DNA from: Lampris incognitus | Lineage: Eukaryota; Chordata; Actinopteri; Lampriformes; Lampridae | Length of the DNA: 64,000 bases | Direction: 5' to 3' | Assembly (NCBI RefSeq): GCF_029633865.1 | Contig: NC_079223.1 | Location: forward strand, 9,123,736 to 9,187,735 | In this document: positions 3,616 through 51,300 of the stretch, in pieces | How the letters are laid out: every line of letters begins with the position of its first letter | Position numbering within the stretch: the first letter of the stretch is position 1 | The notes under the pieces: generated by a model | Told to the model about the DNA's origin: nothing | What the model saw: only the letters and a program-made list of their open reading frames with translations | The model's database searches: none | Translations under genes and position numbers: made by a program

Positions 3616-4055
3616 TCGTCACTTTTTTATAATATCTTTATGGAGGGAATATATGCGATTTTACTCTTTGTTAATCCTCTGATGACAAAGTTGTGTTTTT
3701 GCACAAAAAAAAATTATGAAGACATAATCTACATCCGTCAAAAAAAAAATAAACAAACAAAAAACCCAAACATATCTCTCAATAAACTGTGTATCCAGAT
3801 GAGCTGATTTAGCTTTCTTTGACTTTTTAATTGAAAGAATTCAAAGTTATCAAATTGCACACAATGCAATAAAGATTACACCCGATGAAACAGCATAGCT
3901 TCAATAAAAACACAAGTCCAGGGGTTACACGTAGTAAATAAGAGGTAAAATAAAAGTTAACAGAGGTTAATATTTCATTCTTTTTAGGCCATAAGGGTCC
4001 AATACAGCGGCATAGTTTTACAGCCTTCAGGTTTTTCGAATATTGTTTGGTGTCT
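3616..4055. repeat. Duplicated A-rich non-coding flank
   Basis: No gene seen. The stretch matches 11722-12135, 17432-17850 and, less closely, 23776-24245. It includes the Penelope-like tip (TCTCAATAAACGGTGTATCC) and ends at CAGCCTTCAGGTTTTTCGAATATTG, after which the RTE-like LINE starts in units 1-3 but not at 24245. Confidence 0.7.
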
Positions 4056-5095
4056 ATGTGGATGTTTGGATGATGTGGGGTTAGTGAATCAGGAAGTGCT
4101 GTGGATTAGCAAGGAGGAAGTGAGGGTAGCTATGAAGAGGATGAAGAGTGGAAAGGCAGTTGGTCCTGATGACATACCTGTGGAGGTATGGAGATGTTTA
4201 GTTGAAATGGCAGTGGAGTTTTTAACTAGGTTGTTTAACACAATCTTGGAAAGCGAGAGGATGCCTGAGGAGTGGAGAAGAAGCATACTGGTACTGATTT
4301 TCAAGAACAAGGGTGATGTGCAGAACTGTAGCAACTACAGAGGTATAAAGTTGATCAGCCACAGCATGAAGATGTGGGAAAGAGTACGAGAAGCTAGGTT
4401 AAGAGGCGAGGTGATGACTAGCGAGCAGCAGTATGGTTTCATACCACAAAAGAGCACTACAGATGCAATGTTTGCTTTGAGAATGTTGATTGAGAAGTAT
4501 GGAGAAGGCCAGAAAGAGTTAGATTGTGTTTTTGTGGATTTCGAGAAAGCATATGACAGGGTGCCAAGAGAGGAGGTGTGGTATTGTATGAGGAAGTCGG
4601 GAATTGCAGAGAAGTATGTAAGAATGGTGCAGGATATGTATGTGGGATGTGTGACAATGGTGAGGTGTGCAGTTGGAATGACAGATGGGTTCAAGGTGGA
4701 GGTGGGATTACAGCAAGAATCAGCTCTGAGCCCTTTCTTGTTTGCAGTGGTGATGGACACTTTGACGGACATGGTCAGGCAGGAGTCTCTGAGTACTATG
4801 ATATTTGCTGATGACATTGTGATCTGTAGTGAGAGTAGGGTGGAAGTTGAAGACAGCCTGTAGAGGTGGAGGTATGCACTGGAGAGAAGAGGAATTGAAG
4901 TCAGTGGGAACAAGACGGAATACACATGCATTAATGTGAGGGAGGACAGTGGAATGGTGAGGATGCAAGGAGTAGAGGTCATGAAGGCATATGAGTTTAA
5001 ATACTTGGGGTCAACTGTCCAAAGTAACGGGGAGTGAAGAAGAGAGTGTAGGCAGGGTGGAGTGGGTGGAAAAGAGTGTCATGAGTGATTTGCGA
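4056..5095 (+). mobile_element. RTE-like LINE fragment, RT domain (copy 1)
   Basis: Open frame 4066-4863 encodes an RT core: KSGKAVGPDDIPVEVW, RRSILVLIFKNKGDVQNCSN, YRGIKLISHSMKMWE, EQQYGFIPQKSTTDA, FVDFEKAYDRVPREEVW and the catalytic FADDIVI. This matches the very common fish LINE of the RTE/RTE-X type. After a TAG at 4861 the frame continues as the usual ERRGI..NKTEYTCINV tail and YLGSTVQS. The endonuclease and the 3' end are missing, so it is a dead internal fragment. Copies stand at 12140 and 17850 in units 2 and 3. Confidence 0.85.
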
Positions 5096-5104
5096 CAGAA
5101 AACA

Positions 5105-6600
5105 AAGGGTTGGCCTATCTTTTTGGAGTTCCATTCTCAACAGCTACGGAAAGAGCAACATAGGTTAGGGGTGGAATGCCTTCAGCTTTTGAGAGAAGAC
5201 ATCTCCCTCTTCATGATAACTCTCTCTGTAACCTATGTTAAAAAATGTTCCTTGTCGTTTCAATGATTGGCTCAAAATTTAAAGAACATCTTAAAGATTC
5301 ATCTTTTGTAATATTTACACCCAAATATGTAACTTGATTCTTAATTTGAATGCCACATATACATGACATTTCACATGTCTTGATAGACATTAATTCACAT
5401 TTGTTGGTATTTAAACATAAACCAGAAGCATTGGAAAAATTCTTAATAAGGTCCAAGGCACGAGGAATTTGAGCAGCATCTTTTAAGAAGAGGGTTGTAT
5501 CGTCTGCCAGTTGGCTGATGAAGACCTGTCTGTCCGCAACCACTACACCCTGCAAATCACTATTGGAAATAAAAGTAGCAAGAAGTTGGGCAGCGATCAA
5601 AAAGAGATAAGGGGAGATGGGACAACCTTGTCTATCTCTGCGATAAAGGTTAGACCTTGGAGAAGTACCATATTTTAACTTAATTGAGTTACCACCGTTA
5701 TTATAAAGAGTTTTGATAGTTTTACAAAAGAAGTCGCTCAAACCAAGCTTTGATAGGGCTTTATAAAAGAAGTCATGTTCCACAGAATCAAAGGTTTTAT
5801 AAAAGTCAAGAAAGAGAATGAGGCCGTCACTATCAACAAGGTCATTATAATCAAACAAATCTGAAACCAATCCAATGTTATTTGTGATGTGTCGATTTCT
5901 CATGAATCCTGATTTTGTCTCATCTAAAACATCTTTTAACCTTTCAGCAAACAGTGGGTGTACTATTTTATAATCATTATTGAGAAGCAGGATAAGGCTC
6001 CAGTTATCTAACAATAACAGATCTTTGTTAGGTTTTGGAATTAATGTAATGATCCCCTGAGTCATGGTGGGTGGGAGAGCTCCTTTTTGTATACTTTCTA
6101 AAAAACAACCACTAACCAAAAAGGGGCATAATTGTTCAGCAAACATTTTGTAAAGCCATCATTTCCAGGTGATGTGTCATTTTTCAGATTGCCCATCACT
6201 TTTTCAACTCCCTTGACATCAGTTGTAGAATTACATGAATTCCTGTCATCTGTGGATAAGAGTCAAGAAAAGCGGTGGCTGCGTCTTCAGAGTATTGGGC
6301 CTTGTAGAGATTGCTGTAATTGGCACAGAAAGAAGCAATTCCTCTAGGGTCATTAACTACGTTATTATCTATTAGTAATTGATCTAAGAACTAAGAGGAA
6401 TTTTGTTGCCCCTCCATCTTTTCCTAGATCTAATAAATGTTCCTTCTGCTTTAATTTTATACGTATCATCTAATTAATTTTGTAATTGCAAATATTCCTT
6501 ATGCTCATCATCAGATAAATTGTCTTGTTGAGAAAAACATGCCAACTGGTAGATAACTTTTTCTTCCGCAGTTCTTCTGTTCTTAGTCAGATCACTTCCA
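5105..6600 (-). mobile_element. Tx1-type L1 LINE fragment, RT domain (copy 1)
   Basis: Minus-strand frame 6146-5238 encodes an L1/Tx1-clade RT: ITLIPKPNKD, KSGFMRNRHITNNI, LILFLDFYKTFDSVEHDF, RQGCPISPYLFLIAAQLLA, FISQLADDTTLFLKD and LNTNKCELMSI. Further upstream ORF2 sequence can be followed to about 6600. FLDFYKTFDSVEHD and LADDT are the polymerase motifs. Both ends are lost; the 5' side abuts the truncated EPHX1-like exon 4. A near-identical fragment lies at 13705-15200. Confidence 0.85.
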
Positions 6601-8823: not shown

Positions 8824-11717
8824 TGTGGCAGGAATGAGGAAAAACACAGGAGACCAAGGCGAGTTTGACGTTTATTCCTCAACTCCAAAAACCAACTGCA
8901 GCAGGAACAACCCTGCACCGGCGAGCCCGGGAACATAAACCGCGCCCCCAGCTCACAGTCCTGCTGGGTGAGAGGCATAGCCCCTAGTGTCCGCCACACA
9001 GCCCCCCCCCCCCGAACACCCAGAAGGGACTCCTGGAAAGAAAATTAGTGTCTCACTGGAGGCTTAAGCAGCCTGCCATAACGGCTGCGCCGTCTCTCAG
9101 CCGAAACAGTAGGTGAAACACAGTCCAAAGCCGGCTGAGAAGCAGAACGCTGAACCCGTGAAGACACTGCCGGGGTCCTGGAAGGAGGACGACCCTGACG
9201 GGGAATCTGGGCCGGAAACACAACTTCGCCTGCCACCCTGTGCGCCGGTTTAAGCCTATCAAGCGTGACACGCTCCTTACGCCCACCCATATCTAGCACA
9301 AAACCCTTAGGACCCGTCTCAAGAACCTGAAATGGGCCATCGTATGGGGGTTGGAGGGGCGAGCGGTGAGCATCATGCCGTACAAAAACAAAATGAGCCG
9401 ACATGAGCTCCGCAGGCACGAACGACCGCGGAAAACAGTGGTGAACGGGCCCTTGAACCCGAGTGCTGTCGGACAAAAAAGGATAAACGGCCGGACGGGG
9501 TCGAGGAGCGGAACTCCCAGGCAAAAATTCCCCAGGGACGCGGAGCGGCTGACCGAGCACCAGCTCAGCGGGTGACGCGTCGAGGTCCTCCTTAGGAGCC
9601 GAACGCAACCCGAGCATAACCCAAGGTAAACGATCCACCCAGTTACCATCCGAGAGCGCAGCGCTGCCTTGAGCGACTGGTGAAAACGTTGACACAACCC
9701 GTTAGCCTGAGGGTGATACGCGGTAGTGCGGTGTACCTGCACACCCAAGGATCGCGCAAGTGCCGACCAGAGCTCTGACACGAACTGAGGGCCCCTGTCT
9801 GAGGTGATATCTGATGGAGTGCCGAAACGGGCGACCCAGGAGGAAAGAAAAGCGCGTGCAACATCCGAGCATGTTGTGGAGGATAGAGGGACAGCCTCTG
9901 GCCACCTGGTGGTCCGATCTACCATTGTGAGCAGGTGCGTAAAACCCTGTGAAGAAGGTAGAGGGCCCACCAGGTCCACATGCACGTGGTCGAAACGTCT
10001 GGCCGGGATCGGAAACGGTTCGAGGGGCGATTTAGTGTGCTGGTGGACCTTAGCGCGCTGGCCCGCTACACATGCAGCTGCCCACCCCTTGACGTCCTTG
10101 CGGAGGCCAGGCCAGACGAACTTGGAACCGACCAACTTCACCGACGCCCGAACTCCAGGGTGCGAGAGGGAGTGAATCGAATCGAAAACTCGACGGCGCC
10201 AGGCCACTGGAACAACGGGGCGGGGACGGCCGGTGCAGACATCGCAGAGGAGGGCAGGACTGCCTTCCTGCATCACAGCATCCTCTAGCTTGAGACCGGT
10301 ACGCGTTGACCTTAGGGCAAGGACGTCCGGGTCGCTGGACTGGTCGGCAGCCATAGCGGAGAAATCCACACCGAGGTGCACAGGACACACAAGCACACGC
10401 GACAGACAGTCAGCAACAGGGATGGACTTCCCGGCCACATGCTGAATGTCCGTTGTGAACTCGGAGGTCGCCGCTAGGTGGCGCTGTTGACGAGCAGACC
10501 ACGGCTCAGTCACCTTGGACATGGCAAAAGTCAGCGGCTTATGATCCACATAAGCCGTGAATGGGCGACCCTCCAGCAGGAAGCGGAAATGCCGGGTTGC
10601 AAGGTGCAGTGCCAGCAACTCCCGGTCAAAAACGCTGTACTTGCGCTCGCTATCCCGCAGTTTGCGGCTAAAAAATGCGAGTGGCTGCCACGCATTCGCC
10701 ACACGCTGTTCAACCACAGCCCCCACGGCTATGTCAGACGCATCGGTTGTTAAAGCTATGGACGCCGTGGGTGTGGGATGGGCGAGGAGGGCAGCGTTAG
10801 CCAGGGCGCACTTAGCTCCGTCAAAGGCCTGGACCTGTTCGGGAGTCCAGTCGACAGGGTCGTTAGCCTTCTTAAGCCGCAGGGGCAGTCACTTCAGCCA
10901 CCACTGCCGTGTCCGCGTCCTCCGACGTCGGCTGCAGAGGCTCCGATGCCACACTCTGCACAGAGAACCGTCTGGTAGCCAGCAGGACCCGATCGGCCTC
11001 CTCAGCCAAACCTCGGCAGTCACCAGCGGCCAGACACGGGGAGTTAGCCAAAGCCGCGCGCACAGGAGACGGGAGCTGGCGCAGGAAAACGTGCGGGAAA
11101 AGGAACCCACCTTCGTCTGAGCCTAGCAGCGACAGCATATTGTCCATGAGATCCACAGCCGTCCTGTCGCCCAAACCGGATATGGAAAGGATTCTATCTG
11201 CCCTCTCTGCGGTAGATAGGCTGTACCTCCGGAGCAGAAGATGTTTGAGGGCGACGTATTTATCGTGTTGCGGAGGGGCGCGCAACAGCTGCATGGCCCG
11301 GCGTGTGGACTGCTGGTCCAGCGCAGCGACGACCAGATAGCATCTGGAGTCGTCCGCGGAGATTCCACGCAGGTGGAAAAGCGCCTCGACATGCTGGAAC
11401 CACGAGGCCGGGTCGCTCTGCCAGAACTCTGGGAGCTTCACAGCCGCGGTGAGAACGGCCCGCTGTGAGAGTTGGGGCGGCGTGGCCGAAGTGGATTCAC
11501 ACTCCTCTTCTGCTCCAAACATGTTCAATTCGGGGTCACCAATGTGGAAGGAATGAGGAAAAACACAGGAGACCAATGCGAGTTTGATGTTTATTCCTCA
11601 ACTCCAAAAACCAACTGCAGCAGGAACAACCCTGCACCGGCGAGCCCGGGAACGTAAACCACGCCCCCAGCTCACAGTCCTGCTGAGTGAGAGGCATAGC
11701 CCCTAGTGTCCGCCACA
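8824..11717 (-). mobile_element. Ty3/gypsy LTR retrotransposon fossil
   Basis: Minus-strand element bounded by 175-bp LTRs at 8824-8998 (3' LTR) and 11543-11717 (5' LTR), both with TGTGGM...GCCACA ends, and flanked by a 4-bp TTGT target duplication. A purine tract lies beside the 3' LTR. Parts recognised: gag (frame from about 11576 to 10872), RNase H (SRKLRDSERKYSVFDRELLA, YVDHKPLTF) and integrase (HPGVRASVKL, YHPQANG). Shorter than a full gypsy element and broken, with a few breaks. The LTRs still agree closely, so the insertion is fairly young, but it precedes the duplication that made units 1 and 2. Confidence 0.93.
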
Positions 11718-12139
11718 TTGTCACTTTTTTATAATATCTTTATGGAGGGAATATATACTATTTTACTCTTTGTTAATCCTCTGACGACAAAAGTGTGTTT
11801 TTTGCACAACCCAATAAACAAAACTTAAAAACAAAAAAGATTATGAAGACATAATCTACATCCGTCAAAAAACAAAAAACCCAAACATATCTCTCAATAA
11901 ACGGTGTATCCAGATGAGCTGATTTAACTTTTTTTGACTTTTTAATTGAATGAATTCAAAGTCATCAAATCGCACACAATGCAATAAAGATTACACCCGA
12001 TGAAACAGCATAGCTTCAATAAAAACACAAGTCCAGGGGTTACACGTAGTAAATAAGAGGTAAAATAAAAGTTAACAGAGGTTCATACAGCAAAATAGTT
12101 TTACAGCCTTCAGGTTTTTCGAATATTGTTTGGTGTCTA
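11718..12139. repeat. Duplicated A-rich flank (unit 2)
   Basis: Matches 3616-4055; no gene seen. Starts with the right-hand TTGT target duplication of the gypsy insertion. Confidence 0.65.
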
Positions 12140-13180
12140 TGTGGATGTTTGGATGATGTGGGGTTAGTGAATCAGGAAGTGCTGTGGATTAGCAAGGAGG
12201 AGGTGAGGGCAGCTATGAAGAGGATGAAGAGTGGAAAGGCAGTTGGTCCTGATGACATACCTGTGGAGGTATGGAGATGTTTAGTTGAAATGGCAGTGGA
12301 GTTTTTAACTAAGTTGTTTAACACAATCTTGGAAAGCGAGATGATGCCTGAGGAGTGGCGAAGAAGCATACTGGTACTGATTTTCAAGAACAACGGTGAT
12401 GTGCAGAACTGTAGCAACTACAGAGGTATAAAGTTGATCAGCCACAGCATGAAGATGTGGGAAAGAGTACGAGAAGCTAGGTTAAGAGGCGAGGTGACGA
12501 CTAGCGAGCAGCAGTATGGTTTCATACCACAAAAGAGCACTACAGATGCAATGTTTGCTTTGAGAATGTTGATTGAGAAGTATGGAGAAGGCCAGAAAGA
12601 GTTAGATTGTGTTTTTGTGGATTTCGAGAAAGCATATGACAGGGTGCCAAGAGAGGAGGTGTGGTATTGTACGAGGAAGTCGGGAATTGCAGAGAAGTAT
12701 GTAAGAATGGTGCAGGATATGTATGTGGGATGTGTGACAATGGTGAGGTGTGCAGTTGGAATGACAGATGGGTTCAAGGTAGAGGTGGGATTACAGCAAG
12801 AATCAGCTCTGAGCCCTTTCTTGTTTGCAGTGGTGATGGACACTTTGACGGACATGGTCAGGCAGGAGTCTCTGAGTACTATGATATTTGCTGATGACAT
12901 TGTGATCTGTAGTGAGATTAGGGTGGAGGTTGAAGACAGCCTGGAGAGGTGGAGGTATGCACTGGAGAGAAGAGGAATTAAAGTCAGTGGGAACAAGACG
13001 GAATACACATGCATTAATGTGAGGGAGGACAGTGGAACGGTGAGGATGCAAGGAGTAGAGGTCATGAAGGCATATGAGTTTAAATACTTGGGGTCAACTG
13101 TCCAAAGTAACGGGGAGTGAAGAAGAGAGTGCAGGCAGGGTGGAGTGGGTGGAAAAGAGTGTCATGAGTGATTTGTGACA
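12140..13180 (+). mobile_element. RTE-like LINE fragment, RT domain (copy 2)
   Basis: Frame 12149-13120 is open for 323 codons, longer than in copy 1: KSGKAVGPDDIPVEVW through FVDFEKAYDR, FADDIVICSE and NKTEYTCINV to YLGSTVQSNGE. Sequence is nearly the same as 4056-5095. No endonuclease and no 3' tail, so not mobile. Confidence 0.85.
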
Positions 13181-34337: not shown

Positions 34338-37300
34338 TCACTTGCTAAAGCCCTTGATGGTCAAAGGTGCCCGATACCATATATAATCCTGCCACTCAGA
34401 TGCTGCCACCTCCAGGGGAACTCTTGAGACACCAGCAGTAGTCGACAGGGCAATAATTTGATTCTTAACACGGGTTGGCACTTTAAAATCCAATTTAGGT
34501 CGGAACCATCCCACACCGCAATCCCTGTGAGCCAGAACCAAGACTGTAGTGGCCATCAGTCGCACAGGTCTGGCATCAGACAAAAGATCGGCCACAAAAA
34601 GGGTACGAAAGAGCTGCCTCAGGCATGACGAGACCTGAAGACTCTGATCTCCGGCAGCTAAAACAAGCGCTTCCATATTGATCTCGTAGAGCTCTTTGGG
34701 GAGGATGAGGGAGCCGCCCAGCAACAATAGTACACGGGGCACCAGGCTGAGGGAGAAGAGCACTTGCAGCTGCTGCAACACCTCCTCCAGCTCGTGGAGG
34801 GTCTGCTGACACTTCCGCCAGTTCATGTCCACTGACTGCACCGGTCTCCAGCTTACCACCTCTTTATCCTGTATAGTAAATAAACTTGAAATGTAGCGAC
34901 AAGCATCATACAGCACTTAATCTGTGACTTAAAAGAAAATAACGGTACTTTTCGACCTTGGTCTTATTTTCATAGTATTTTTCCATCATTCATTGCATTT
35001 ACGAATTAGGCAGATGTTTTTATCCAAAGCGACTTATCCAATGCGAGTTTCTAAGGACAGGATGTTGTACTGCTGTAAAGCCCCTTCAGGCAAAGTTGTA
35101 ATTTGTGATATTGGGCTACACAAACTTGACCTGACTTATTCCTATCAATTGTTATATTTTACCTACCTGCCATATTGTGGATGTCTTTGAAGACCAGCCA
35201 CAACAGGCCCTCTGCTTCACAACGGCGTCAATACGACATACTAACATACAGGTTACCCCAAGCAGGTCCATTTTATCTAAACCTCTTCTTTGGACATGCA
35301 GGCAAAGTTGATATTTTATTTCTTTAGCCAAAATTAAAAGTAGTTATTTAATACTAGAACTACAACTTGCAGAAACAAGCGACCATACTTACATTCCTAT
35401 TATATGATTTGGATTTGCCACCTGAGACTCACCAATGTAGCCTAAACAAATTTTGTTTGCGCACAGAATAGGTTGAGTACGGTAAGTGTCTGCATACTCA
35501 ATAATCCAGGTAAGAAAATCAAAGTAAGTTGAATCAGTTCATCTGGACACAACGTTTAGTGACAAACATTTCATCACTCATCTAAGTGACCTCTAAAGTC
35601 TCAACTGACTGCAGGTATCCCCACCCTTATAAACAGTACAGTTGCATAACAACCGAAACCAACGATCAGTTACTTATGCAAATAGGCATGGCCATTAAAT
35701 AGAGTTTCAGTGGCCATGTGTACTAATCAGTGTACTCAGCCCCCCCCCCCCAGTACTAGTATTAGTACTGTCCATCCATTATCCAAACCACTTATCCTGT
35801 TCTCAGGGTTGCATGGATGCTGGAGCCTGTCTACTATAGTGTAAACCAGTGGCGATTCCATATGTGGTGGGAATGTCGGAAAAGTTGAGATGTTTCTTTT
35901 TTTAATGTTTTTGGTGGTGTCGTTCTTGGAAAATTTTGGATGTGTGTTTTTTGTGTTAACACTACTGTGGGCTGGTGGGAAATGAAATTTCGTTTCTTTG
36001 TGTATGCAAGTACGTCCAAGAAATGACAAATTGTTCCGGATTCCTGATATTTTCCAAATACTGTGTCTCCGTTGCTTTCAAACCCCAAAAATTGGTCCAC
36101 CCCAAGGATCAGGTCCCCCGGCACAAACAGAGCAATATAGTGTACGCTGTTAAGTGCCAGGAGGATTGCCGTGACTTGTACATCGGGGAAACCAAACAGA
36201 CACTGGTCAAGAGGATGTCACAACACAGGAGAACTAACATGTCAGGCCAGGACTCCGCAGTCTACACCCATCTACAGGCAAGTGGCCACTCTTTCAGGGA
36301 TGAGGATGTGCACATCCTTGATGGGGAGGAACACTGGTTTGAACGGGGAGTTAAAGAGGCCATCTACGTAAAAAGGGAATGACCATCCCTGAACTGGGGG
36401 GGGGCGCAATGAGTACATCTGTCACCAATCTTACAATGCTGCGATTGCAACTATTCCCAAATCCTCTGTGAATAGTACACATGGCCATTGAAACGCTACT
36501 TAATAGCTCCGGTATTTAAATATTTTGGTAACACTTTAGTATGGGGAACATAAAAAAACTTAATTACTAGTGAATTAGTAATGATCAAGATGTCACTTTA
36601 GTATGGGGAACATATTCTAAGTAACGAAAACTTAATTTACAGTAATTTAACACTATTAACACTTGTAGTTTTGTGTGTTGTTATGTAAGAACAGACCATA
36701 TTCATTAAGTGCTAGTAAGGGAGAATAACTCTTCTTGTGGTACTACCACCTTATAAAGTCCATACTAAGCAAAGCATATTGAGATGGTACTACTAATAAG
36801 TAATAATTCTGAGGTTATAGAGGGAAAACTCATAGTTAATGGTTGTATAATAAGGCCATGCAGAATAAGGCATTAATGAGTACGTAATAATGACCAATTA
36901 AGAGCCAATATGTTGCTAATTTGCATGCTAATAAGCACCTAATTAACAGTGACTACGTTCCCCATACTAAAGTGTTACCAATATTTTCTGTCAATTTCAG
37001 CTAATCAAGTTTATCTTTCAACTTTTTTCATTTACAAATAAGAGGTTTAGTTAAAATGGAGTTGTTTGAATTAAATCGAACCTGTAGTGGTTATATGGCT
37101 ACATAATTCCCCTTATTGAGCTGGTAGGAACGTTTGTTTACAGCTGCTGTTTTCTCGGTTCGGGTTTACAGCGACACACTTCCGCTGCGCGGGTTTTTGT
37201 CGTTGTTATGGCGGAAGGAATAAACGGCGCACGTTGTGTAGCCGAAAGATTGAGCTCCTCCACAAACCAATATTCTGTACCGACATTGTGAAGCAGTCTA

Positions 37301-40300
37301 TAGCATAATCTTTCTGAATAATGAAAAACACTATGAGAATAAGACCCAGGTTAATCAATCAACTGGTATAATAATGATAATTAAATGTAACCGGTTATTT
37401 TCTTGCCCGGTGCGGGATTCGATACGAGTGTACTGCACCACAAGGCGGCACCACTAACCGCTCGGCTAAAGGGTTATTAGGAGTTTACATAAATTTGTAT
37501 AGCGCTTTTCTATACAAAGGTATATACTTTTTTGGGATGTTCCTTTAATATTAGGTGTGTGTAGATCCCCCCCCCCCCCCGGTGGATCGACTGACCTGAA
37601 GTGAAGCCTGCTGTTTCTTCTGGAAGTGCACCAGTTGGTCGTAGGTCATGGGCAGCTGTTGTCTCTGATACAGGACGCACTTGAGGATCTCGCTGACGAA
37701 GCGGCAGCAGCCGTCCTGAGTGACGGCGCCGGGGAAGACCACGTCCACGCGGCCCTCCTCCCGGGCAGACCGGATCACCTCCTCGTCACTGACCTCAGCC
37801 CTGCCACGCTTGGCGGCAGTTAACGAGGGCATCTGCAAATCCTCCGGACAGTCGCCGTCTTCTTCGGCAGCGTTATCTGGCAAAGTCGAGCGAAAGCGTT
37901 AGCCGACTTAGCGCCGTACCCCCCCGCCCCCTCCGGATGACGCCACGTCAACCTTTTCCGATTTAATCATTTTTAACCGGAAGAAGATGGCGGCGGTCTA
38001 AGGAGGCGGATGTGAACTCCGTCGGACAAATTTGAGGTTTTGCGGTATGACAACCTGAATATTTGGATTTTTAGGTCGTGGAATGAACACATAAGTGAAG
38101 GGTTATCTTTGCAATTGGTACCGGGCATAGCTATCAGGGGAAATAAGACAGTATTTTGAAGGGGGAAAAAAAGCGCGGCGCTAAAAGTTTGAATCCAAAT
38201 TAGCCGTTAGCTAAAATGTCTACCAATCCTAATGCTAACGTGAGTGACACTGAAACGTCCATGGAGTTGAATGTACCAGGTACGGAAAGAATGGTGCTTA
38301 ATAACTCAGAGGGCCCTGTCGGTATCTTGTCTGCCCCACCTGCTGACTCTCCCTTCGAACCCGTCACCAAAAGGAAGAAGCGGGGGGGGGGGGTAACGGT
38401 AATGATCGCAGCAACAACGGCCGGCGCAGACATCTTGGCGGCAATCCGGATGCTCTCTAGCAAACACGACGAGACGGCACGCAAGATCTCAGTGATTGAA
38501 ATGACAACAGGTGCCATTTCTAAACGCGCCGAGAAACTGTCCTCTATAGCGGAACAACTTGTAACCGACATAAAGAAATTCTGGAGCACACGGAGTCAGA
38601 AATTGAAGATTTAAAAAAGAAAACCGTGTAGGGGTTATGGGGCTACATAATTCCCCTTATTGAGCTGGTAGGAACGTTGGTTTACAGCTGCTGTTTCCTC
38701 GGTTCGGGTTTACAGTGACACACTTCCGCTGCGCGGGTTTTTGTTGTCGTGGTAATGGTGGAAGGAATAAACGGTGCACGTTGTGTAGCCGAAAGAGAAA
38801 GTTGTCACGACTCCTGCTTGAGCACCTCTACAACCGCATCTTAAGGGCATCCAAAGGAGCTGAATCAAGTGCAACTGGAGAATGAGAGCATTCACGGACA
38901 TCTTAAGGGCAGGAGTCGCTGAATGTAAACGCCACAGTTGGAGATGGGCTTTGAAACTACGCGGGCTGAAAGGGGAAACCAACGAAAAATGTCAGAAAAA
39001 CGGTGACTGATGTTGTCGGAAACGTTGCTCCCGGGCTTCAAGAATATCCGGAGGAGGGGGTTGACACTGCCCATCGTCTTGGCCCAAGATGAAAGGATGG
39101 ATCCCACAGGTCTATCATCATCTTGTTTGCACTCCGCCGTGCTGCGTGGAAGAGCGCCAAAGGCTGCAAGTGTTTGCCGGATAACAAACTGCGGCTCACA
39201 GAGGCACCGAGTCCTGAAGACAGTCGCAAGAGAGAAGCTCTGCCCCCCCCTGTTAAAAAGCAAGAGAGGAAAGGGGAAAAGCTTCCTTCCGTGGCCCTTT
39301 TGCTCTGATCGATGGAGAGAAAAAAAATTGACCACTTGGACATTTAATGACTTTTGATACACTCCATGGACTTTTAGGCTCGCACGCTTGGTTGGATTGA
39401 GATGCTCACATTTAATAACTCTGTTGAGCAATTCCCCTCACTCTCTCGACCGGAGAATTAACTCAAGTGCACCTACTGAAAACAAAGTTTAAAATCCGAA
39501 CTGTGGACTTTGGTTGGCTGCAGAGCGGGCCGTCCTCCACGTCAAGAAATACCCGGTAAAGAAACCTTATATTATATTGTCTTCATGATACTATATTTCT
39601 ATTCATCTACTATATTTCTATACATGCTGCATTTCTTTACAAGGGTTAGCCAAGTTAAATTGCCATATATTGTATACTGTATTGAGTCATTGTATTTGGT
39701 CACCATATCCTACTGGTTGTCTATTACTCCCTCTTTCAAATGAGACTAAAACACCTTAAAGTTCTAGTTACCTGTTTACGTAAGAGCTTGTATTTTTATT
39801 TATTTATTTAATGGACTTTAAGTTAAATTCTCTATCAGTTATGTCATTGAATGTCAGGGGTATACGTGATGCTGTGAAGAAGGAAGCCACCTTTTTACTT
39901 TGTAAAAGAAGTGAGGCCGACTTAACACTTCTCCAGGAAACACATTCATGTGAGTCAGATGTACAATTTTGGAAGGGGCAGTGGGGAAATTGAATTAACT
40001 GTAGTCATGGTACCAATCACTACTAGAATCTCAATCTTCCTGCATAGATTTAAAGGGGATATTCTTGGGGTGGTTCCTTCAAACAATAGCAGATGGATTG
40101 CAATAACGCTTAAACAAGATAATTCAATTTTCATTGTTTGTAATTTTATGGTCACAACTGTCATTCCTCCAACAAGGTGCTTTTTTGAGATGATTTCTAA
40201 ACTCATTGAACTCTTATATAAATATCCAGACTCTTATTTAATTTTATGTGGGGACTTTAATGAATGTGCTGATGATGCGAGGGATAGGTTTCCTCCAAAA

Positions 40301-43300
40301 ATTTGTCATGGTCTTCAAAGAAGTAGTTTTGTTTTGAAACTGTTCTGATCTCTCTCCGACTGATGCGTGGCGCTTTTTAAATCCTGATATACAGGATTTT
40401 ACTTGGTCTAATAAGAATTTGTTCTCTCGGTCCAGGATTGACCTATTTTTAATCTCATCACCTGTTCTTCATCTTGTAAAAGATGTCTCATTCTTTTACT
40501 CCGTTGTCAGATCATAAGCAAATTATTCTAAAGCTTGGTGGCCTACAGGATACTCCAAAATTAAGAGGTTACTGGAAACTCAACAATGTCCTTCTTAAAG
40601 ACAGCCCCTTTAATGACAGTGTTAAAAAGTTAGTTAATTAAATATTTATTGATAACACAAATTGTGAATATAAACAAAAATGGGAATATTTTAAGTACAT
40701 GATTAGAGGTGTTGTTATAGAGAAGTAAAGAGTTAAACGCCCTTAAAAGTAAAACAGAGTCTAATTAGACAGAATAAAAGTCCTCTTATCTAAGACTAGC
40801 ATATCTACTGAAGGGGAACTGGAATTGAAGGAGATTCAACTAAAAATAGATCAAATTTATCTTGATTTGGCCAAGGGTGCATTTATAAGATCCAGAACCA
40901 AATGGCTAGAGGACGGGGAGACAAACTCTAGCTACTTTTTTTGCTCTTGAAAAAAGAAATGGCACAAGAAAGTCACTAGCTGCTCTTCATATTAATGGAA
41001 CTCAGTGTACAGACCCAAAATTAATTTCCAATTTTGTCTCTTCCTTTTATGGGAACCTGTATATGTCTGAATTCAATGACTGTTCCTGTGGAAGTTTTAT
41101 CAGTAAGATAAGAAAACATATTGATGAGGACTAAATACTCTGTGATTCTGATCTGACAGTAAACGAAATTAAAACAGCTCCTTTCTCATTGAAAAAAGGA
41201 AAATCAGTATTGATGGTCTTTCAGTTGAATTTTATGTTCATTTTTGGGACCTCATTCAAAACCCATTATTTTGTATGTACAAAGAATGTATTGATCTGAG
41301 AGAGATGAGCACAACTATGAAACAAGGTATTATTTCCCTTATCCCAAAACCGGATAAACACACTTTGTTAATAGATAATTGGCTATTGATTATAAAATGT
41401 TGGCCTTGGCTTATGCGAACAGACTAAAGACAGGGCTTAATCATATTGCTGCTGAAACACAGTCCGGTTTTATTAAAAGCTGGCATATTAGCAATAATAG
41501 ACTTATCTTAGATTTATTGGACTATGCAGAGTCAGTACATTCAAAAGCTTTTATTCTTTTTTTTTAGATTTTTACAAAGCCTTTGATACTATTGAACATA
41601 AGTTTCTTTTAGAATGTCTTCAGTTGCTTGGCTTTGGGAAAACTTTTATAGGTACCATTGATAATGTTTTATAAAGATATCAATAGCTCTGTGGTTATCA
41701 ACTTCAACACCTCCCATAGATTTGATATAAAACGTGGTGTCCGTCAAGGTTGCCTGATTTCACCCTTTTTATTTATTTTAGTTGTTGAATCATTATCCCT
41801 AAATATTGTACATCCAGAGTTTAAAGGCATGTCTATATTTAATAGGGAAATAAGAATTTCACAACTAGCTGACGACACAACTATTTTATTAAGAGATAAA
41901 GAGTTGCAGAAACCTATAAACCTAGTTGAACAGTTTTCACTAGCTTCAGGTTTGAAACTCAATGAATCTAAATGTGAGTTATTGCCCATACATGATTGTG
42001 AAGACCCATTAACATTTTTACTGGAACTCACATTTGGAATAAATTAACTGGCAGGAAACATGGCTTTTACCTTATACGTTTTGTATTCCTAACAAAGTCA
42101 AAGAAGTTCACTTTGAAATCTTACACAAAATCTATCCAGTGAAATGTATAATCTCCAGATATGTGGATGTCGACAACTCTTGTTCTTTTTGTGGACATGC
42201 TGACGAAACGTCGATCCATTTATTTTTTCAGTGTAAAATAACAATGAAATTTTGGTCTGATTTAAACTCTCATGTTTTCAATATCACTCATGTTACTCGT
42301 TGTTTTACTCTTAAAGGTGTAATCTGTTACTATGACGATATGAGTAACAAATCTCTGAAACATTTTTTTTTTTATTGGGGAAATTCTTTATTCATGAACA
42401 GAGGTTTTCAGGTTCACGACCTTCACGACCTCACCATCCCACCTCAGCTCGTCCGGACCGTCACAGCCTCACGGTCCTTCACGATCTCAATTCGTGCCCC
42501 CTTCCTTTGCGAAGGACGTCCCCGGCCGGACCGTCACAGCCGGGGCGCGAACTCGTGTCTCCCACACGACGAGCGACAACGTTAACCAGTAGACTAAAGG
42601 TTCCGACCCCTTAGCCATGGGCTACCGAGCCTATTCATCCGTGATCGTTACATTATATTGGCATTTTAGTATTATTATTTTGTGTTGTTATCAGCTCTCC
42701 TGTATCGTTTTTTTTTTGTACCTGACGTATTATATTGTAACGTGCATGGATAAGAAGACACGCTGGCCGCTAGGTGGCGGGTCTGACCCTTTAGTCTAGC
42801 GGTTAGCGATGCCTCCTGCGGTGCGGGCGATACGGGTTCGCTTCCCGGCCGCGGCAGTTCCTGTGGTTGCGTTGCCCCCCGAATTCGCTACATTGGTGTC
42901 AGAAGTGGGATGGAGCCACCGTAAGGCCATCGGAAGCGTATGCGCCCTGAGGCGTGAAGGAGCTGATTCCCGAAGGAGGGGGGGGTAGTGTAACGTGCAT
43001 GGATAAGAAGACACGCTGGCCGCTAGGTGGCGGGTCTGACCCTTTAGTCGAGCGGTTAGCGCCGTCTCCTGCGGTGCGGGCGATACGGGTTCGCTTCCCG
43101 GTCGCGGCAGTTCCTGTGGTTGCGTTGTCCCCCGAATTCGCTACAATATACATTTTGTTATATTAAAAAAAAATCTTTTACCCGTAAACCCCAATCTTGA
43201 CCTAACGTTGAATCCTAATCTAATGTTAACCCCCCGGCTGAAATGATGTACAGAAAGGCAGTCAAAAGAGTGCAGAGATCATTTCTAGGCAGGCAGAAAA

Positions 43301-45335: not shown

Positions 45336-48300
45336 TTGTCTCTCTGTCTCTCTCTCTCTGTGTCTCTCTGTGTCTCTCTGTGTCTCTCTCTCTCTCTGTT
45401 TACACATTCAGTTTTATGAAATTCACATTCACGCTTAATCACGTCGCTCAGATCTCATTGTTTCCACACGCAGAGAAAAACGGTTGTCTTCGAAAGTGAT
45501 AGTACAGCTGAAGGGAAACACCGCCACCATCGTCAAGGTATAGTGCCTGCACAGCATAGTGGGTGATGATGCGTTGCACTTGATGGGCACATACAAAGTG
45601 GAATTAGAATAATTTCTGGTTTCCTTTTTCCTCTCAGCTCTCACCCAGTGTTATCCGTGGGAATGGACAGATGGATAGAGGGAAATCCTTTTCTTATGAC
45701 TTCTCCTATGATTCCACTGACAGAAAAAGCCCCTCTTTTGCAGCCCAGGAGAAGGTGTCCGATCCATTTCAACTGTGTAATATTTGAAGTCTTTGTCTGC
45801 TGTTGGGAAAGTTCCTCACTGTATAACCTTCATTGCAAAGTTGAGGGTCGACTTGTGTCAGATGCCTAAATTTGTGCAGGATGACAAAAAGTGAGATCTA
45901 GTTATTGGCAATTAACCTTATCTGGCAGTCAGATAGTCAAACTTATACATGATCTGTTTCTATCCTCTTAATGTATTTTAGGTGTGCCGTGTGCAACATT
46001 TCTCTCATTTTTAGTAACCTGCCTCTGCCATTTCAGATTTTTCAAGACTTGGGAACTGATGTTCTGAAAGCTGCGTTTGAGGGTTTCAATGCCTGCATCT
46101 TTGCCTATGGCCAGACAGGGACTGGAAAATCCTACACAATGATGGGTGATATTGTAAGGCCTCTTCTTGGTGTCCACATCACATGCTGACACTGGATCGG
46201 ATCCACCCACAGTCCGGCAGATCCGCAAAGAGATCACATCTGGTCCTAGACCGCCCCCGCCTCTGCGCCGATTCCGGCCATGGATGTATTATAGTTCTAC
46301 TATAATACATCCATGATTCCAGCAGATCAGCATAGGGATCACATCCGGTCCTAGATTGCCCTGCACCTCTGGCCAGAGTGTGGTCTCCTTACAGAAGTCA
46401 GAACCCATATATAAATTGGGCCTTGCGGGTCTAAAATGAGTCAAGAGTCAGCACCTGAATTCTCCATTTCTCGCTTCACATTTTTTTAGAAACAGATTTT
46501 AATGGCCTGAAGAACGTTTACGTCACTGAATACGCTGCCGTGCATTTCTGTACCGGCATCATGGTGGGTGCCAGATGCTGTGATCCATTCGGTCCAGATC
46601 CAGCCCAGTTTCATTTTTCTGTCTGCTGCTTGTTTTGACATGTTAATTTGCTCATGATGGAAACCTTCTGAATGTCTCATTTGGATTGTCCGTTCACAAA
46701 GCAGTCTGACTAGCAACTGCACAGCGCCGAGGACGCAGGGGATGTTGTGTAACAATCGCAATGCTATAGAGTTTACACAGTTTGTGTACCTTCACTTCTT
46801 CATGCACCACTTCTTCCCAACTATGAAAGGACTGACTGGCAGCCTCATTAGATGTACCCCTCCTCCTCCCCCATTATGTTTGTCCTCTCTAATCAGAAAA
46901 TACAATGAGGCGAGAGAGGTTCCCATCTTTCCCTCTCCCCACCTTGCACAGTGTTGGAAATTTCATGTGGCTGATGAGATTTATGCCTGTCTACCAGGAG
47001 ACTCGTGCAAGGTCGTCAACTGAGTTGCTGTCAACATCCTAGATAATTATATACAGCTCTCAATGCTCACTATCTGTTACTTTGTAATTAAAACAAGAGG
47101 GCACACAATTCAGACTGGAATTGGTTTTATGCTTCGGTAGCTCCATCAGACGAGCTGTTATTTGTGTTTAGCAAGCTTTGCGCATCCTGAGTTGTGGTCA
47201 AAGAATGGGGAAATATGACTAAATTAAAAGACAGTGTAGGGACAGAATGTCATATTCATTTCACAGGTTTACCTAGTAACATTATGAGATTGTGTGTGTG
47301 TGTACATAATTTTGCATGTTTCCTATATTGTGGCAGGAGGATAAAGGCTTAATTCCACGGATCTGTGAACATTTGTTCTGTGAGATATCCAAGAGAAGCA
47401 AGAGCGATGCGGTGTCCTTTCGCACAGAGGTCAGGTAAGGGGTCATCATCCAGTGAATGAGGTAACGCTTCTGGTCATTCAAAAGAGAAGTTTCAGGACT
47501 AACAGAGGTCTCTCCAGTCACTATTCGAAGTCTCTCCAATTAACGACAAATTCACAACTTTCATTTTGCTACAAAAGATTTCATGATGATCAAAGAAAGT
47601 TGAATCAGTTCATCTGGACACAACGTTTATTTAGAGAAACGTTTCATCACTCAACTGACTGCAGGTATCCCCACCCTTATGAACAACACAGTGGTATAAC
47701 AACTGAGACCAACCATCAGTTTCATTTGCAAATAGGCATGAGCATTAACTAATGTTAAAACGGCCATATTCGCCAGTGGCCACTCTTTCAATGATGAGGA
47801 TGTGCACATCCTTGATAGGGAGGAACACTGGTTTGACCGGGGAGTTAAAGAGGCCGTCTATGTGAAGAGGGAATGACCATCCCTGAATGGGGGGGATGGG
47901 GCTAAGAGTACATCTGTCACCATCTTACAATGCTGTGATTGCAAACATTCCCAAATCCTCTGTGAATAGTACACATGGCCATTGTAACTCTAGCTAATGG
48001 TCACACCTATATTTGCGTATGAAACTGGTCATTGGTTTCAGTTGTTATGCCACTGTATTGTTTATAAGGGTGGGGACACCTGCAGTCAGTTTAGACTGGA
48101 GAGATTAAACATTTCTGTCAATATATGTTGTGTCCAGATGAACTGATTCAACTTTCTTTGATTTTGTTACCTGGATTATTGAGCATGCATAATGTCAGAG
48201 TTTACTCCCATAGGCTGTAGTTGGAGTACGAAATGAAGCTGTTTGAAAGGACTTAATGTTTTTCTACATGACCAGTAGACGGTACCTTATTACCCCTCAG

Positions 48301-51300
48301 GTTTGGCGTAATCATTTAGCCACTTGGCATGACAAGTAACCACGGTACAAAGGGGTAGAGCTGTAGACATTGAACTGTCGTTACTCATCATCGCAGTTGG
48401 GCAGTACTTGAGCCGGTGCATAACAGATTGAACAGGAAGCCCTTAGGGTCATCCCTAATTGCTCATTTACTGTGAGAAAGAATGCTAATGGACAATGAGC
48501 CTTAATATCAAATCAAGTGTAATAGCACTCCCTTAAGATGATGATGGGAGCTCTGTCTGGCTGGCAGATGAGGAGCGTGGGTAAAATAGTGATATAGTAG
48601 TCATTATGCACAGAGAGATGTCATTCTTTGCTCCTTTTTCTCTTTAATAGTGGTGCTATGTCCTTTGCTAGTGTTATTTGATTGCCAAGTGGTGTACTTC
48701 ACCTGGACTATTTTTGCAGACAAAACGGTTATACATCCCCTTATGTTGGAACAGTATTTCTATATCCCAGAGACCTGTTTCCCCCCCCCCCCGTTTTTAA
48801 AAGGACAAAAAAAGTGTAAAAATAAGGGTAGCTGTGACTCGAAGGGTAAAATGGTAAAATGTTTTCCTTTTCAAACTGATTTGAGCTTTAGCTCTAGCAC
48901 CACATTTGATTTAAGTTACTTTTTGAACGAGCTTTCTTGAAATTGAAATGGCTAATAGCTTGTGTAATGTGAAGATTATGTGTCTAGAATGGCACAAAAT
49001 TTACACTGCATCTCAGGAGTTGAGGAAACGCATTGACAGTGCTTAAAGGAAGAATCTCAGGTCAAGAATTAAATTGTCTTCTAAAGCTTTTAGTTGAATG
49101 AAACTGTCCAATGTTTGTAATGCCAGAGTTTTTGTTAGGCTTATCCAAATAATTTAAACTTGGATGAGAATGCTGCAAATATAGATCTGTGTTTTCATTG
49201 AATAATAAGCTTTGCTAAAACTCAGAAGCCTCCACAAGCTGTCATCAAGCACAGGCACAAGTTATATGTTGGTCTCTTCATGCTGTTCCAGTGTTTCTCA
49301 CTAAAGCTTTGAGGCATGTTATTGATCCTGTAAGGGAAATGATGGTGCCATAAGGGAACTGATCACAGAAAGTTGAATCGGTTCATCTGGACACAACGTT
49401 TATTGAGAGAAATGTTTCATCACTCACCGAAGTGACCTCTTCAGTCTCAACTGACTGCAGGTATCCCCACCCTTATAAACAGTACAGTGACATAACGACC
49501 GAAATCAACAATCAGTTTCATATGCAAATAGGCATGACCATTAACTAGAGTTTCAGTGGCCATGTGTAGTATTCACAGAGGATTTGGGAATAGTTGGAAT
49601 CACAGCATTGTAAAATGGTGACAACAGATGTACTCTTAGCAATTCAGGGTTCAGGGATGGTCGTTCCCTCTTCACAGAGATGGCGTCTTTGCTCCCCATT
49701 CAAACCACCGTTCCTCCCTATCAAGGATGTGCACATCCTCATCCCTGAAAGAGTGGCCACTGGCCTGTAGATGGGTGTAGACTGCGGAGTCCTGGCCTGA
49801 CGTGTTAGTTCTCCTGTGTTGTGACATCCTTTTGGCCAATGTCTGTTTGATTTCCTCGATGTACAAGTCACGGCAATCCTCCTGGCACATAACAGCGTAC
49901 ACTATATTGCTCTGTTTGTGCCGGGGAACCTGATCCTTGGGGTGGACCAACTTCTGTCACAGCGTTTTCTGGGGTTTAAAAGCAACTGAGACGCGGTGTT
50001 TGGAAAATACGCGTCTCAGCTTTTCTGACACTCCCGCCAAATATGGAATCACCACTGGTTTACCTTTAGGCAGCTGTTGTCCATCTCCTTTCTTTGATTG
50101 GCTGGTGCACTGTTTGGGCGTCTTCCTGGCTTTGACAAACACTCAGTTAGGATAACCACACTTAACCAGGGCCTGTTTGATATGAGATTTCTCCCCTTTG
50201 CCTGCCACTGTGTCAGTGGGGACTTTGTCAGCTCGGTGGTAGTGTCCTGATGACTCCTAGTTTGTGCTCCAGTGGGGTTGTCCACAAATCTGAACCAATG
50301 GCTAGGTGGTGTCCCTGGATAGGCCATCAGGGCCCTCTTTTCCACTTCCTCCTTAAACAAGTTGGCCACGGCAGGTGAGACTTGGGAATCCATAGCACAC
50401 CCATGCCTCTGCCTATAGTACTGCCCCCTGTATGTGGACTGAAGACACAGCTTCAGGAGCAGACACACTTGGTCTGTGTTAAGGGTGGTCCTATTGCTAA
50501 GGGTGGGGTCATTTTGTAATTGCATAAGGACTACCTCCACTGCTTCATCAACAGGAATGTGAAGAGAGACTTAACATCATCAGAGACCATTGTTTCATCT
50601 CCCTCCATAATGATGTCCCTCACCTTATCCACAAAATCCATAGTGTTCTGAATGTGATGTTCATTACTGCCTACCAACAGGTTAAGAATAGATGCAAGGG
50701 GCATCTGGGTGGCATGGCGGGCTATTTCGTTACCTACCAACATGGGGATTGACGGTTCGAATCCCCGTGTTACCTCCGGCTTGGTCAGGCATCCCTACAG
50801 ATACAATTGGCCGTGTCTGCGGGTGGGAAGCCGGATGTGGGTATGTGTCCTGGTCGCTACACTAACGCCTACTCTGGTCAGTTGGGGCGTCTGTTTGGGG
50901 GGTGATCCTCCCACGCGCTACGTCTCCCTGGCAAAACTGTCACCTGTCAGGTGACAGGAAGCAGCTGGCGACTCCACATGTACCGGAGGAGGCATGTGGT
51001 AGTCTGCTGCAGCCCTCCCCGGATCGGCAGAGGGGGTGGAGCTGTGACCAGGACGTCTTGGAAGAGTGGGGGTAATTAGACGGGTACAATTGGGGTGAAA
51101 AGGGGGGGTAGTTGCAGGAAACTTAGAGATGTTCTAGGTCACTGAGTTAATCATACAAACAATAGGCTGCAATGGCACATCCTGTTTATGTGTCGTAGGT
51201 AAACCATACAGACTAGGTGTAGCTTCCCCTGGATATAATCTTGGGTATAATCTATGGTATAAAATTCTGTCAATAGCATTGTCCTGTTCTAATAGCTTCA

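Follow-up and report, generated by a model that had tools for sequence, protein, structure and literature searches.

The 64,000-nucleotide stretch of Lampris incognitus DNA analysed here (the window) carries a p31comet (MAD2L1BP) exon at 34341-34916 on the minus strand, with matches to MAD2L1-binding protein chains in the PDB, along with an RNase H/integrase frame adjoining a DUF7041 frame (9296-11597, minus strand), three further reverse-transcriptase frames (3988-4863, plus; 5238-6155, minus; 12053-13117, plus), a UnaL2 LINE 3' element (Rfam RF00436; 53569-53622, minus), and related copies of an interspersed repeat in both orientations (35491-36504, 47587-48189, and 49360-49956). At 42736-43145, on the plus strand, lies a 410-bp LTR element. 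Its two LTRs (5' LTR, 42736-42892; 3' LTR, 42989-43145) are each 157 nt long, with TG..CA ends (TGTAAC..GCTACA), and differ from each other at 6 positions. Between them, a 96-nt non-coding interior (42893-42988) includes an 18-nt primer binding site (PBS, 42894-42911), complementary to the 3' end plus CCA of tRNA-Leu, and a polypurine tract (PPT, 42972-42985), read from the sequence, that abuts the 3' LTR. The whole is flanked by the 4-bp target-site duplication ATAT (42732-42735 and 43146-43149). The element lies exactly where the original prediction had placed it, which had described a terminal-repeat retrotransposon in miniature (TRIM).

The element is repeated across the genome, where the prediction would have been refuted by a single-copy sequence. 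At least 45 genome matches were obtained with the 410-bp query, of which 42 span positions 1-408 or the full 1-410 (best 40 of 2198 candidates scored, 1.48-Gb genome), and the exact PBS was found at 5346 sites, compared to 0 for a reversed-sequence control. Among the first 30 PBS sites, all from one end of one contig, 28 showed LTR or interior similarity to the element; the two exceptions (L031 and L032) have 399 bp in common, reaching just past the PBS. Extrapolating from the PBS counts and these 30 sites, the genome would hold thousands of copies. For comparisons between copies, we used 30 loci chosen by similarity to the window element, which together contain 31 rows with at least two LTRs, one array being counted twice (L008 and L011). 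Such tandem arrays also occur in a sibling family (family B) and in a third branch of related LTRs, both described below. The 27 two-LTR elements displayed a mean LTR-LTR divergence of 6.7%, and purine-rich ends preceded the 3' LTR in most of the copies compared (exception, L027). Exact duplications of at least 4 bp flanked 15 of the 27, one of them within an AT run; once 3 elements with a PPT remnant in the upstream flank were removed, 15 of 24 duplications were exact and the other 9 were one base off, and none of 20000 reshufflings attained 15 exact among 24. The target sequence RTAY was found in 15 of these 24 upstream flanks and 21 of the 24 downstream flanks.

Each LTR also contains the A-box-like and B-box-like stretches that had been predicted. 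With TRGYNNANNGG as the pattern of the A box and GGTTCGANTCC as that of the B box, the A boxes (42792-42802 in the 5' LTR, 43045-43055 in the 3' LTR) have no mismatch and the B boxes (42835-42845 and 43088-43098) have one, all on the plus strand; in either LTR, the A box begins at position 57 and the B box at position 100, a spacing of 43 nt. This box pair exceeds shuffle expectation, as it was not equalled in any of 2000 dinucleotide-shuffled versions of either LTR. Nor is it confined to the window element: when 131 distinct LTRs were split at 18% distance, giving 25 clusters of which the largest two comprise 68 and 32 LTRs, the boxes recurred in most clusters, and the tRNA-like boxes are thus present in other family members. 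Directly upstream of the A box lies a palindrome, GGGTCNGACCC (42779-42789 and 43032-43042), which 11 of the 25 cluster medoids carry unchanged and 10 carry with a single-base difference.

We next considered whether these boxes are in use or whether the element is a TRIM with Pol II-driven LTRs, in which the A and B boxes are an idle relic left by a SINE or tRNA that inserted long ago. Pol II is the polymerase of ordinary Gypsy elements, and the A-box window is not specially conserved, ranking 77 of 147 between the 25 medoids; its seven defined positions each agree in 22-24 of 25 medoids, with more variable N positions, although the best placement near the expected site biases this agreement upwards. 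Against an idle relic, the B-box window ranks first in conservation among the 147 (0.886; mean 0.691), and an A-B spacing of 43 or 44 nt is kept in 116 of the 131 LTRs. In addition, neither AATAAA nor ATTAAA occurs in any of the 131 LTRs (a raw count, with no shuffle comparison), TATAWAW occurs in one, and TTTT, a Pol III terminator, in one (1 of 25 medoids), compared to 25% of dinucleotide and 29% of mononucleotide shuffles. The TTTT and spacing counts are overstated, since the 131 LTRs are related and 100 of them fall in two clusters. Overall, these patterns make Pol III transcription of the element likely, and we regard the Pol II alternative as unlikely, if still the most serious of the alternatives weighed here.

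The tRNA resemblance that is kept lies in the B-box sequence rather than in a structure, a point which also counts in favor of the Pol II alternative. The T-arm-like hairpin of the original prediction holds as far as its letters are concerned (a 4-bp stem and a 7-nt loop), whereas its structure is not supported: folding of the tRNA-like stretches gave z scores of -0.12 for the 3' LTR and +0.83 for the 5' LTR, with the hairpin folding in the 3' LTR only, and across the 25 clusters we counted 96 standard T-arm pairs versus 98.3 after re-pairing arms between clusters. With both folding and re-pairing at chance level, we rejected the T arm as an RNA structure. ARAGORN detected no tRNA, either in the window or in 35 loci, and the proposed covariance-model check of the LTRs returned no tRNA match in Rfam. 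Conservation of the B-box sequence without conservation of the RNA fold is, however, what would be expected of a promoter. In local alignments to 13 human tRNAs, the window LTRs scored best with tRNA-Asp and tRNA-Glu, their scores being attained by none and by one of 300 mononucleotide shuffles; the same test in other groups gave 0/300 (B), 0/300 (D), and 2/300 (C). Because the best matches of the window LTRs are Asp and Glu, in so far as these 13 tRNAs can tell, we do not favor the view that the ordinary family obtained its boxes from its own primer, tRNA-Leu.

The primer itself could be assigned with help from the host genome. No second match to the PBS occurs within the window even when 3 mismatches are allowed (chance expectation, 0.06), and its 18 nt are complementary to the 3' terminus of two host tRNA-Leu genes, L114 and L115, once CCA is added. 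Both genes finish with ..CCCACTTCTGACA; the next genomic bases are TGCT in L114 and TGAT in L115, so that a genomic CCA is lacking. ARAGORN finds no tRNA in L114 and calls L115 a tRNA-Val; read by eye, the anticodon is CAA, before an intron, in L114 and CAG in L115. We take both to be tRNA-Leu genes by their sequence and presume the isoacceptor name Leu(CAA), in agreement with the tRNA-Leu(CAA)-type primer site originally proposed.

Sixteen genome sites extend this match, carrying TGG plus 22 nt of tRNA-Leu complement. A TRIM LTR end lies directly before 8 of the 9 extended sites read (0-3 mismatches of 13; as a yardstick, an LTR end lies within 2 mismatches at 25 of 27 exact PBS sites in L001-L030), and at these 8 sites the exact match to host tRNA plus CCA reaches 28-35 nt. 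The ninth, one of two units in L117, adjoins LTR leader sequence rather than an LTR end. Since several extended sites have a common far junction (GAGACTAC), the 9 sites may represent fewer events. The CCA in the extension indicates a mature tRNA as template, and we interpret the extended sites as probable footprints of tRNA-Leu priming, an interpretation supported by their sequence. In published work, plus-strand strong-stop DNA usually halts after 18 nt owing to tRNA modifications, and additional halts at modified bases elsewhere have been reported for tRNA-Lys3 (PMC13191261). In L119, the order is LTR end, extended PBS, PPT, and LTR start. This readthrough of the PBS into the primer tRNA, along with the two LTRs, TG..CA ends, PBS, PPT, and 4-bp duplications, leaves next to no probability for a LINE-mobilized SINE that happens to resemble an LTR element, even though the short, non-coding element has in common with tRNA-derived SINEs (SINE2) the internal tRNA-type A and B boxes. 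SINE2 elements are mobilized by LINEs and have no LTRs, PBS, or PPT.

A gene-less element would depend on proteins supplied in trans, and we therefore looked at coding elements with the same primer site. At 1082 PBS sites, the next base is other than G; in a sample of 16, TRIM LTRs were matched at 7 sites but not at the other 9. The latter include non-TRIM LTR elements with the identical 18-nt PBS: L098, L102, and L110 with L113, and L104 with L112 (L102 is 99.5% identical to L110). Downstream of the L110 PBS, L113 codes for a zinc knuckle, an aspartyl protease, a reverse transcriptase, and an RNase H, with a Retrotrans_gag match below cut-off, while L104/L112 displays a gag-like start, seen by eye and without a Pfam hit, and a partial integrase. 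The genome thus contains a coding element that has the PBS of the window element, its domain order suggests that it is of Gypsy type, and L113 is the best coding candidate for a partner. These PBS-sharing elements differ from the TRIM by their downstream coding domains, and none of the 9 non-TRIM PBS sites shows a TRIM LTR match. Three gypsy-like stretches (L093-L095), picked by eye as reverse-transcriptase hits from the best 150 scored of 83763 candidates, have only 10-17-nt matches to TRIM LTRs, which is chance level, and no Leu-type PBS of either kind was found upstream of their reverse transcriptase at up to 4 substitutions, although these stretches may not reach the PBS. No Gypsy element with matching LTR ends was found among the elements examined, and no longer relative combining these LTRs with an ordinary gypsy organization was found in the sequences examined. 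A search of viral contigs with one 22-nt pattern also gave 0 matches. The 18-nt PBS common to a coding element could point to an internally deleted ordinary gypsy LTR element with a tRNA resemblance by chance, yet the absence of LTR matches, the box pair that no shuffle equalled, and its recurrence in most clusters make this very improbable.

Taken together, the element is not new in kind and belongs to the Helenus type, defined by Kojima 2024 (PMC10886601) for TRIMs whose LTRs include sequence of tRNA origin and which occur in fishes such as zebrafish and coelacanth. This overtakes one statement of the original prediction, that a tRNA-bearing counterpart in vertebrates was not known. In that paper, Helenus elements are TRIMs of <1000 bp without proteins, as is the 410-bp element with its 96-nt interior; a PBS complementary to a tRNA 3' end (His, Leu, or Lys in vertebrates) is accompanied by a PPT, which in the window element involves tRNA-Leu; and animal members have 4-bp duplications, as observed here. 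LTR-11_DR of zebrafish, with 5575 LTRs and 2618 interiors, is alike in its short TRIM form, tRNA-like LTR boxes, PBS and PPT, 4-bp duplications, tRNA-Leu primer, high copy number, and tandem arrays (PMC10886601), a likeness drawn from the published description and not from sequence identity, and its group is placed in Ostariophysi. Plant Cassandra elements (PMC7215508) are similar in having a Pol III promoter in their LTRs, no coding capacity, and tandem LTR arrays; their promoter is, however, of the 5S rRNA type, for which Rfam searches gave no match in the element LTRs, and they are reported to have conserved Pol III terminators, while the window-element LTRs are without T runs. In the mainly open literature searched, and as far as the sources could be seen, no further papers on tRNA-bearing TRIMs were found apart from Kojima 2024 and a 2026 meeting report, so that the present element supports a class resting there on one 2024 paper. 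Beyond the accessible part of that account, which describes neither two primer types on one leader/A-box block, nor an RTAY preference, nor primer-tRNA footprints, the data presented here add a target-site preference, terminator avoidance, two primer types per promoter block, and the footprints of the priming tRNA.

We thus consider that this is probably a non-autonomous, gene-less Helenus-type TRIM (the "TRIMp3" class of Kojima 2024) that is transcribed by Pol III, primed by tRNA-Leu, and mobilized by a Gypsy-type element. Pol III would be recruited by the A and B boxes within the 5' LTR, start just upstream of the A box (at about LTR position 40-50), and read on through the interior and the 3' LTR, because a TTTT terminator is almost absent from the LTRs. 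Mature tRNA-Leu would then anneal to the PBS and prime minus-strand DNA, a step supported by the genomic footprints, and strand transfer between the LTRs would be followed by PPT-primed plus-strand synthesis and integration at RTAY-like targets with 4-bp duplications. The necessary proteins would come from an autonomous Gypsy-type element, the putative partner. Pol III promoter function of Helenus is also left unproven by Kojima (PMC10886601).

Family B provides a second view of the same architecture. Its LTR is 135 nt long (13 elements measured, L021 and L081-L092; a further copy in L013 is not included) and is 84% identical to the window LTR over positions 16-72, compared to 44% elsewhere, with GTATC where GGTTC would be expected. 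The mean LTR-LTR divergence is 3.1%. The PBS is mostly TGGTGGCAGCGGTGGGAT, which we take to be a tRNA-Leu(AAG)-type primer site and which has 2268 exact sites in the genome. Duplications are exact in 4 and one base off in 6 of the 13 elements, and RTAY was found in 0 of 13 upstream and 1 of 13 downstream flanks (the latter counted by eye). A single leader/A-box block is therefore combined with different primer sites and different target preferences in the two families, suggesting that family B and the family of the window element (A) may use two different partners. The window itself contains a solo LTR of family B (37386-37489, minus strand; 104 nt, with a 21-nt match, its sequence and TTTA/TTTA flanks being read by eye), which has lost internal sequence upstream of its A box.

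A more speculative reading, which we consider doubtful, is that the Pol III module of such TRIMs is renewable from the primer tRNA itself. Reverse transcriptase would pass the 18-nt stop into tRNA-Leu and then switch to an LTR, so that the A-box half of the LTR becomes linked to the B-box half of a genuine tRNA, CCA included. Such a structure is found twice in L117: at bases 82-193, the beginning of an LTR, with leader and A box, leads into a tRNA-Leu 3' half with CCA and then an inverted LTR end, and a second fusion of this kind spans 281-344, its junction ending at base 344. Deriving the transcription start from the L117 foldback was set aside as too complex. If renewal does occur, capture of the primer tRNA would be a testable route to Pol III promoters in LTR elements and an alternative source of tRNA-like LTRs to the SINE insertion into a TRIM LTR that Kojima suggests as the origin of Helenus (PMC10886601). 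A family could then also exchange its primer site without its promoter halves, or the reverse, as the siblings A and B hint. In L105 (1-120), the leader/A-box block occurs about 4 times at roughly 28-nt spacing, followed by an LTR with an extended PBS.

Finally, the third branch is represented in the window by a diverged LTR-like stretch beside the element (42495-42652, minus strand; 68% identity over 113 nt), for which at least 116 genome matches were found, including itself (best 40 of 2880 candidates). Elsewhere in the genome, this branch forms head-to-tail arrays with some units of about 159 bp (L062, L069, and L078), in which the tRNA-like part passes straight into PPT-like sequence.
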